Source: Synechococcus sp. MVIR-18-1 (GTDB lineage Bacteria; Cyanobacteriota; Cyanobacteriia; PCC-6307; Cyanobiaceae). Taken from it: a stretch of DNA of 64,000 nucleotides. Positions 6,177-8,938 of the stretch are shown here, in pieces. Location of the stretch: positions 1,488,001-1,552,000 of the forward strand of contig NZ_CP047942.1 in NCBI RefSeq assembly GCF_014279835.1, written 5' to 3'. The first letter of the stretch is position 1, and each line of letters begins with the position of its first letter. The notes beneath the pieces are model-generated. The model had not been told where the DNA came from and ran no database searches. It saw nothing but the letters and a program-made list of their open reading frames with translations. Both the position numbers and the translations under genes were made by a program.

Positions 6177-7253
6177 ATGATACGTACGCTTGTACTCACT
6201 GGAATCGTTCTGATTTCACTGCCGATTCAGACACTCGCAAAAGAAGTCGCAAACGAGTTGCAGATTGGGGTCAGTGGGTCACCACCATTTGTGATCGAAG
6301 AGGATGGTGTGCTGAGTGGGATCAGTGTCGAGATTTGGAAGGACGTCGCAGAGCGTCTCGAGCAGCCTTACAAATTTGTTGTTCAGCCGAACACCAATGC
6401 AAATGTAGAAGCTGTCGCTGATGGCAGCGTTGATCTAGCCATCGGTCCAATCAGCATTACGCCAACCCGCCTAGCCAATCCGAAAATAGATTTTACGCAA
6501 CCTTATTATCACGGATACGAAGGTTTACTGATCCCTCAGAAACCACCTGGACTGATAACGCGGCTTCGCCCATTCATTGGTTGGGCTGCTTTATCATCAG
6601 TGGGCATACTGATCACACTTCTGTTTATTTTTGGCAATCTCATTTGGTTGGCTGAGCGACGCAAAAACACCGAACAATTTCCTCGCCACTATTTTCATGG
6701 CGTAGGAAATGGAATGTGGTTTGGGCTCGTTACACTCACAACCGTTGGTTACGGTGATCGAGCACCACTATCACGAAGTGGCCGCATCATCGCTGGCATT
6801 TGGATGGTGATCTCACTCGTAGCAGTCTCGTCAATCACCGCAGGGCTTGCATCGGCTTTTACATTATCCCTCGCTGAAATAGCACCTTCAGCTATTCGCG
6901 AAAAAGCCGATTTAAGAGGTAAAGAAATAGCCGTTGTAGAAGGAACAACGAGCCTAAGATGGGGAAAACTATATGAAATCAACGCCTTCCTCACCAAAGA
7001 CTTAAACGGAGCAATCAAAATCCTTAATCAAGGAAAAGTAGAAGGCATTATTTTTGACGAAGCTCCGCTTCGACACTATCTCAAGCAAAACAAAAAGAGC
7101 AAGCTAAAACTTGCAAACTTTCCATTAGCGATACAAACCTATGGATTCGTACTACCGATGGGAAGTCCATTAAGAAACCAATTAAATATTGAGCTTCTAG
7201 ATATGGAACGGAACGGAGTCACAGAAAGAATTAAAACAAGATTATTGGATTAA
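6177..7253 (+). CDS. GluR0-type glutamate-gated potassium channel
   Basis: 358 residues. Signal peptide (1-21); ligand-binding lobe S1 (about 26-125) with ISITPTR, whose Arg98 matches the arginine that binds the amino-acid carboxylate in ionotropic glutamate receptors; helix M1 (136-158); a pore loop with the potassium selectivity filter TTVGYGD (188-194); helix M2 (203-232); lobe S2 (about 240-350) with FDEAP near 293-297. This order (S1-M1-P-M2-S2, no third helix) is that of the prokaryotic glutamate receptor GluR0 of Synechocystis. It would sit in the cytoplasmic membrane and open to potassium on binding an amino acid outside. The last third of the gene is clearly richer in A and T than the first. 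Confidence 0.92.
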   Translation: MIRTLVLTGIVLISLPIQTLAKEVANELQIGVSGSPPFVIEEDGVLSGISVEIWKDVAERLEQPYKFVVQPNTNANVEAVADGSVDLAIGPISITPTRLANPKIDFTQPYYHGYEGLLIPQKPPGLITRLRPFIGWAALSSVGILITLLFIFGNLIWLAERRKNTEQFPRHYFHGVGNGMWFGLVTLTTVGYGDRAPLSRSGRIIAGIWMVISLVAVSSITAGLASAFTLSLAEIAPSAIREKADLRGKEIAVVEGTTSLRWGKLYEINAFLTKDLNGAIKILNQGKVEGIIFDEAPLRHYLKQNKKSKLKLANFPLAIQTYGFVLPMGSPLRNQLNIELLDMERNGVTERIKTRLLD

Positions 7254-7261
7254 GAGGATAT

Positions 7262-7498
7262 TTATTGAATCACAGTGTGGCGTCGCAACCCATCTTCAAT
7301 TAGAAATGTTGCCAAGCTGCTACAACTCCTACCTTCCTGAAGTGCTTGCTGCTTAAGCCGACTCATAATGCCAGCGGGAAGTGTCACATTAAGACGCTCC
7401 GACGTGGCAGCCTCGGCCACTTGGCCAGCACTAATCGAAGCATCTACAGGAACGAGCTGGTCCTGCAACTCATGCAAAAGACTTTCAAGAAATGACAC
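7262..7498 (-). CDS. Ribbon-helix-helix (CopG/Arc-type) regulator candidate
   Basis: 78 residues. The C-terminal half, RLNVTLPAGIMSRLKQQALQ then EGRSCSSLATFLIEDGLRRH, has the beta-strand/two-helix pattern of ribbon-helix-helix DNA-binding proteins. The N-terminal 32 residues are extra. No toxin gene is adjacent, so it is more likely a regulator than an antitoxin. Two inverted repeats lie immediately upstream of the start, and the divergent gene is the PCC-glutaredoxin fusion. It converges on the channel gene, with 8 bases between stops. Confidence 0.65.
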   Translation of the reverse strand: MSFLESLLHELQDQLVPVDASISAGQVAEAATSERLNVTLPAGIMSRLKQQALQEGRSCSSLATFLIEDGLRRHTVIQ

Positions 7499-7503
7499 GG
7501 TTA

Positions 7504-7535
7504 AGTTACGGTACCGTTACTAAGACGTATCTTAG
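7504..7535. promoter_or_regulatory. Two adjacent inverted repeats, candidate operator
   Basis: AGTTACGGTACCGTTACT (7504-7521) is palindromic apart from one mismatched pair. It is followed at once by CTAAGA-CGTA-TCTTAG (7520-7535). The pair starts 6 bases upstream of the ribbon-helix-helix gene and about 60 bases upstream of the divergent fusion gene. This is a natural place for an autoregulatory operator; function is inferred. Confidence 0.5.
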
Positions 7536-7592
7536 CAGGGGATCCAGCTCCGGTTAGTCTCTTACCTAATAAAGGGAAGACCAATTCGACGA

Positions 7593-8189
7593 ATGGATAC
7601 GCTGACGCTTCATCTTGAGCCAGGACAAGACCTACTGCTATCGCTTTCAGAGGTAGCCCAAGAGAAGCAGATCAGCGGATTCCTATTAGGAGTCGTGGGA
7701 AATTTGTCAAAAGCATCATTTCAATGTCCAGGACGCGATCAACCAACAGTTTTAGAGGGTGAGCTAGAAATCATCACCTTAAATGGAACCTTTGATGCAG
7801 ACGGAGTTCATCTCCACTTAAGTCTTTCAGATGGCGCATGTCAGGTTTGGGGAGGCCATCTAGAAAAAGGCTCACTGATACTGAAAGGGGCGGATCTTCT
7901 TCTGGGAATTCTCAAACAAGGTCAAGCAGCGCGAAGCAGAACCAAAACACGCTTAGAGATTGCGGTCCTTCCTGGATGTCCATGGTGCGCTAGTGCACTC
8001 AGGCTCTTAGAGGCTTATAACATTCCTCACCTGGTCATCACTGTTGACAATGACGTCACCTTCCAACAGTGTCAGCAACGTAGTGGGATGAATACCTTTC
8101 CACAAGTCTTTATTGATGGAACAACTATTGGCGGCTTCGATAGCCTTGAAAAACTACAACGTTCCGGCGAATTGCTCACACTCAAATGA
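7593..8189 (+). CDS. PCC (DUF296) domain - glutaredoxin fusion protein
   Basis: 198 residues with two unrelated domains. Residues 1-112 match the PCC/DUF296 domain: GFLLGVVGNLSKASF, ITLNGTF, HLHLSLSD and VWGGHL, in the usual order. Residues 119-198 are a glutaredoxin-like thioredoxin fold: LPGCPWC with the dithiol active site Cys129-Pro-Trp-Cys132, the cis-proline segment TFPQVFIDG (Pro170) and the GGFDSLEKL helix start. PCC domains occur alone in bacteria or with AT-hooks in plants; fusion to a glutaredoxin is not one I know as common. The second half would reduce disulfides or bind a cofactor; the ligand of the PCC half is unknown. It is probably cytosolic, as no signal is present. Confidence 0.85.
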   Translation: MDTLTLHLEPGQDLLLSLSEVAQEKQISGFLLGVVGNLSKASFQCPGRDQPTVLEGELEIITLNGTFDADGVHLHLSLSDGACQVWGGHLEKGSLILKGADLLLGILKQGQAARSRTKTRLEIAVLPGCPWCASALRLLEAYNIPHLVITVDNDVTFQQCQQRSGMNTFPQVFIDGTTIGGFDSLEKLQRSGELLTLK

Positions 8190-8719: not shown

Positions 8720-8938
8720 ATGTCCATCAGAAGCTGCCCGCGCTGTGGATCAACCTCCATCAGAGCTGATCGCTCCCTTGGTGGACGCTTGGTCTGCATG
8801 AACTGCGGTGCAGCAGTTGGGCAGGGACAAACCACGCGAACCAATCAAAATTCAATGCGTCAAGTCAATCGGCAATGGATTTGGTGGGCTATTGGTCTTG
8901 GCACACTGCTCATTGTGATCGCCATTCAATCAAGCTGA
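8720..8938 (+). CDS. Zinc-ribbon protein with C-terminal membrane helix
   Basis: 72 residues: an N-terminal four-cysteine zinc ribbon (CPRCGS...CMNCGA) and one transmembrane helix (about 49-69, WIWWAIGLGTLLIVIAIQ). Tail-anchored zinc-ribbon proteins of this size are common in marine cyanobacteria. An AGGAGA ribosome-binding site lies 9 bases upstream. Function unknown. Confidence 0.7.
   Translation: MSIRSCPRCGSTSIRADRSLGGRLVCMNCGAAVGQGQTTRTNQNSMRQVNRQWIWWAIGLGTLLIVIAIQSS

Follow-up and report, generated by a model that had tools for sequence, protein, structure and literature searches.

A conserved PCC-glutaredoxin fusion of picocyanobacteria with fusion-specific cysteines and a possible redox-responsive PCC domain

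Results

The fusion gene and its predicted structure

The window, that is, the whole stretch of 64,000 nucleotides analysed, comes from the closed 2.45 Mb genome of Synechococcus sp. MVIR-18-1. It contains a gene in which a PCC (DUF296) domain is followed in the same frame by a glutaredoxin domain. The features of the locus, in positions of the window, are listed below.

7262–7498, minus strand: divergent ribbon-helix-helix (RHH) gene, a neighbour outside the system (RHH_5, E 2.6e-17)
7499–7592, no strand: intergenic region with two non-conserved palindromes (repeat search, relatives compared)
7593–8189, plus strand: PCC-glutaredoxin fusion gene, 198 aa (ORF from ATG at 7593 to stop at 8189; Pfam PF03479 and PF00462)
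7602–7916, plus strand: PCC/DUF296 domain core, residues 4–108, without the C-terminal strand of the standalone type (Pfam, Foldseek, tail motif)
7725–7727, plus strand: Cys45 codon (94/94 fusions, 0/28 standalone PCC proteins)
7809–7859, plus strand: His73-x-His75...Gly-Gly-His89 triad, candidate metal site (94/94 fusions, 28/28 standalone PCC proteins)
7839–7841, plus strand: Cys83 codon (92/94 fusions, 0/28 standalone PCC proteins)
7917–7943, plus strand: flexible linker, residues 109–117 (pLDDT below 50; length variable in orthologues)
7947–8183, plus strand: glutaredoxin domain, residues 119–197, with CPWC, cis-Pro170 and GGFD (Pfam, Foldseek Grx3)
7977–7988, plus strand: CPWC active site, Cys129 invariant and Cys132 replaced by Ser in 59/94 (alignment of 94 fusions)

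The Pfam family PCC (PF03479) matched residues 4–100 with an E value of 3.2e-19 (69.8 bits against a cut-off of 25), and Glutaredoxin (PF00462) matched residues 123–177 with an E value of 5.6e-13 (49.3 bits against a cut-off of 22.9). The AlphaFold model, a single-chain prediction made from an alignment of 48 homologues, has a mean pLDDT of 91, with both domains confident and the linker 109–117 below 50; its pTM is 0.55, and the placement of the domains relative to each other is not predicted. In Foldseek comparisons, the PCC half fits 2nmu, 2hx0 and 2p6y with an rmsd of 1.1–1.2 Å over about 107 columns, while the other half matches Synechocystis GrxA, E. coli Grx3 and further glutaredoxins. 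This second half possesses the thioredoxin fold, the N-terminal catalytic cysteine, the cis-proline and the GSH-site GGxD, with CPWC at Cys129–Cys132 and the cis-proline at Pro170. The earlier note had described both domains as complete in one 198-residue frame. One frame does hold both domains, but the word complete needs qualifying for the PCC domain, because it lacks the C-terminal strand found in standalone PCC proteins.

Authenticity and distribution of the fusion

The earlier note had also raised the possibility of a frameshift joining two genes. Comparison of orthologues revealed none: the fused frame is without internal stops in all 30 aligned relatives and in all 94 distinct fusions extracted, which span down to about 30% pairwise identity, and 48 of 48 aligned members matched both families. 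Since the fused frame is present in many independent genomes, an assembly or frameshift artefact is ruled out. Far from existing only as separate genes, the orthologues carry the fused frame throughout Synechococcus, Prochlorococcus and Cyanobium, and the fusion is thus genuine and conserved across these genera.

A match at E<=1e-12 was found in 164 of the 201 genomes of the family, or in 116 of the 131 genomes of good quality; the other 15 good-quality genomes have no match at this threshold, so that the gene is not universal. The best 80 loci in GTDB contigs are titled Synechococcus, Prochlorococcus, Cyanobium, Aphanothece or uncultured cyanobacteria, except for two MAGs, and the named relatives are marine Synechococcus. 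The two exceptions (L128 and L171) are contigs labelled Phycisphaerae and Bifidobacterium breve that carry a picocyanobacterial fusion, probably as a result of misbinning or mislabelling. Outside the family, the matches listed from a class-wide cyanobacterial sample are PCC-only or glutaredoxin-only. An origin from phages or plasmids was rejected, as neither gave a full-length match and viral contigs gave none.

Another PCC fusion was observed in a different cyanobacterial family (f4), where the domain is fused in frame to a GlmU-like nucleotidyltransferase/hexapeptide protein, at its C-terminus. Such open frames, of 617–737 aa, are found in L038 (G039:C1:2725500-2728500), G248, G261, G284, G294 and G323, with the domains confirmed by Pfam in L038 only.

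Neighbourhood and the DNA-binding reading

The fusion gene is indeed divergent from an RHH gene across two palindromes, as the earlier note had reported. One is CTAAGA-N4-TCTTAG at 7520–7535, and the other is an imperfect palindrome around GGTACC at 7494–7531. The closest relatives have retained neither of them, even at about 90% protein identity. The RHH gene and the channel gene upstream stay beside the fusion in loci of the marine Synechococcus type, but both are absent beside it in the Cyanobium type and in most Prochlorococcus loci. As the RHH gene adjoins the fusion only in some clades and the palindromes lack conservation, neither belongs to the fusion system, and a regulatory unit made up of the two was rejected. 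An in-frame KGRPxRR stretch upstream, which resembles an AT-hook core, was likewise rejected as coding sequence, since the window has no ATG, GTG or TTG start ahead of it and L009 does not conserve it; we interpret it as non-coding DNA that contains the ribosome site.

These observations bear on the proposal that the protein binds DNA and regulates transcription in response to redox state, possibly in concert with the divergent RHH gene. DNA-binding regulation was suggested for DUF296-GRX proteins in a passage of Alves et al. (2009, PMC2679010) that starts from the DUF296 annotation, because DUF296 seemed to hold a zinc-finger-like motif. PCC proteins are also annotated as putative DNA-binding proteins, and PCC domains occur in plant AHL proteins. 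In the latter, however, DNA contact is made by an AT-hook (R-G-R-P core) beside the PCC domain, whereas the 198-aa fusion protein has no GRP core at all. As the fusion is also found without the RHH neighbour and without the palindromes, we regard this reading as improbable.

Several other neighbours were noted. The channel gene (6177–7253, plus strand) encodes a GluR0-like protein, a prokaryotic channel of the glutamate-receptor type, with an extracellular solute-binding family 3 domain and a ligand-gated/K+ ion channel with a TVGYGD filter. A further gene, at 8720–8938 (plus strand), encodes a zinc-ribbon protein of 72 aa, which matches TFIIB/Lar-like zinc ribbons weakly, has a hydrophobic segment at its C-terminal end and shows partial conservation among relatives. 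In 41 of the best 80 loci (e.g. L202:2389-2973, plus strand), of the Cyanobium and Prochlorococcus types, the fusion is flanked in either orientation by a protein of about 185 aa that has no Pfam match; no homologue of it was detectable in the window's genome. Moreover, the redox repair gene for peptide methionine sulfoxide reductase A adjoins the fusion in Cyanobium-type loci (e.g. L202:3661-4284, minus strand), but in just 9 of the best 80 loci, and it was rejected as a functional neighbour.

The glutaredoxin domain

Of the 94 fusions, 34 have CPWC as their active site, one has CPFC and 59 have CPxS (CTWS in one of these), and the switches between Cys and Ser at the second position need about seven steps on the tree. 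Cys129, Pro170 and Gly180 are found in all 94. The intact dithiol site and cis-proline noted earlier are therefore present in the window's protein, yet the dithiol site is not essential in the family. It is known that (de)glutathionylation needs the N-terminal cysteine only (PMC10295655). The frequent serine at position 132 and its repeated changes mean that the second cysteine is dispensable and that monothiol chemistry using GSH suffices. The best reading of these sequences is thus a putative glutathione-dependent, mainly monothiol glutaredoxin.

The fused glutaredoxin domains group apart both from single GrxC proteins and from the glutaredoxin domains of peroxiredoxin-glutaredoxin hybrids in a tree built on a short alignment, with few starred forks and with unreliable rows L215 and L220. 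This separate group is consistent with one old fusion, and a derivation from the hybrid is unsupported. A separate single-domain paralogue is encoded at 2226116–2226352 of the window's genome.

The PCC domain

The extracted frames comprised the 94 fusions and 30 PCC-only proteins. From the latter we dropped L035, a fusion-type PCC whose frame breaks off after residue 105, and L121, a decayed copy of the fusion, which left 28 cyanobacterial standalone proteins for comparison. D13, G36, E59, G65, H73, H75, G88 and H89 are common to both sets. Cys45 and Cys83 are confined to the fusions, as are Pro46, Val85, Glu91 and Leu103, which are likewise typical of them. Cys83 is missing in L093 and L096, both functional-looking fusions, and the cysteine counted as position 45 in L096 adjoins a 3-residue insertion. 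Conversely, the C-terminal strand F-x-R-x-x-D-x-x-TG-x-EL is present in 28 of 28 standalone proteins and in none of the 94 fusions, which carry in its place the linker, 10–68 aa long among orthologues, and the glutaredoxin. Judged by this tail motif, the fused PCC represents a variant of the domain that is truncated at its C-terminus.

The His triad has the same residues aligned to it in 2h6l, a structure with the title 'Metal-containing Protein AF0104', and the site probably binds a metal. In the AlphaFold model, Cys83 lies in the hairpin joining strands 71–79 and 85–90. Cys45 and Cys83 could be metal ligands or structural residues instead of redox targets. In the first case, one or both cysteines and the His triad would ligate a metal or Fe-S cluster in a PCC sensor or carrier, and the glutaredoxin would deliver the cluster or keep the ligand thiols reduced. 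The position of Cys83 between H73/H75 and H89 in sequence and the same His positions in 2h6l agree with this, as does the possible association of monothiol glutaredoxins with Fe-S clusters (reviewed in PMC10295655). However, no fusion has the CGFS motif of the classical Fe-S type, two members are without Cys83, and we consider metal or cluster ligation by the new cysteines unlikely.

In the second case, the PCC would be a mere oligomerising or targeting scaffold with structural cysteines, which clusters several glutaredoxins that act in trans on other proteins. The PCC half is close to solved PCC proteins, the linker is long and variable, and several lineages retain the dithiol CPWC, which is suited to protein disulfides. 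A scaffold would nevertheless have no need for an invariant His triad or for two new, near-invariant cysteines. We hold it to be rather unlikely, but place it first among the open alternatives, followed by metal or Fe-S ligation and then by DNA-binding regulation.

Discussion

Proposed function

Our preferred reading, which we put forward tentatively at a little short of an even chance, is that a tethered, mainly monothiol glutaredoxin acts in cis on the thiols of a redox-responsive PCC domain. The protein would be a redox protein of two domains, located in the cytosol and specific to Cyanobiaceae. Its PCC has kept the core, but a flexible linker and a putative glutathione-dependent glutaredoxin have taken the place of the last strand. 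Known PCC homologues are trimeric, and a trimer with bound metal may be presumed here too. The glutaredoxin would run mainly by the monothiol route, with Cys129 and GSH, and its main substrate would most likely be Cys45 and Cys83 of its own PCC or of a neighbouring protomer. Oxidation or glutathionylation of these cysteines would be undone by the tethered glutaredoxin, as in the peroxiredoxin-glutaredoxin hybrid. Whatever the PCC senses or catalyses, its binding of metal or ligand would thus become redox-responsive.

Action in cis is the most economical explanation because near-invariant PCC thiols appear with an attached glutaredoxin and are absent without one. The linker, disordered and of variable length, would suit a domain that swings onto its partners. 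The combined sensor/redox protein of the earlier note is still plausible, and the fusion-specific cysteines lend it circumstantial support. The fusions all seem to have a common origin, and therefore the association of cysteines and fusion probably represents one evolutionary event rather than many. A bolder version, possible but held with less confidence than action in cis itself, is a self-contained redox switch: when it was fused to a glutaredoxin, the PCC would have acquired the two cysteines and shed its last strand, and the glutathione pool would directly gate the binding of metal or ligand.

If this is true, the protein would be a PCC under the control of a tethered glutaredoxin, in picocyanobacteria, the dominant group of the ocean's phytoplankton. 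The hosts of the fusion account for much of the photosynthesis in the ocean. A PCC permanently tied to a redox enzyme, with diagnostic cysteines, also offers, in C45, C83, H73/H75/H89 and C129, a concrete handle on the role of the domain.

Comparison with known systems

The earlier note had taken a combined sensor/redox protein to be new. The two-domain architecture is not, since it was catalogued as DUF296-GRX, a bacteria-specific glutaredoxin architecture, in a passage of Alves et al. (2009, PMC2679010); our literature search found no paper on the function of the fusion in picocyanobacteria. The catalogued proteins have the same domain order, a CPYC-class (dithiol) active site, to which the CPWC of the window's protein belongs, and a bacterial distribution. 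The relevant passages of Alves et al. concern the architecture only and do not describe the fusion-specific PCC cysteines, the lost C-terminal strand or the frequent Ser at the second active-site position (CPxS), which our analysis adds to it.

Three further systems are comparable. First, the hybrid peroxiredoxin-glutaredoxin (HI0572, 1nm3; TIGR02190) also has a C-terminal glutaredoxin tethered to another domain, and Foldseek matched our model to 1nm3, but its N-terminal partner is a peroxiredoxin rather than a PCC. Second, cyanobacterial GrxA/GrxC (Synechocystis ssr2061, 3qmx) share the glutaredoxin fold and the GSH-site TxPQ and GGxD, but are single-domain proteins. Third, standalone PCC/DUF296 proteins (COG1661-type; 2hx0, 2nmu, 2p6y) share the core fold and the HxH...GGH triad at about 30–40% identity; their cyanobacterial members keep the C-terminal strand and have no equivalents of Cys45 and Cys83, whereas the fusions show the reverse.
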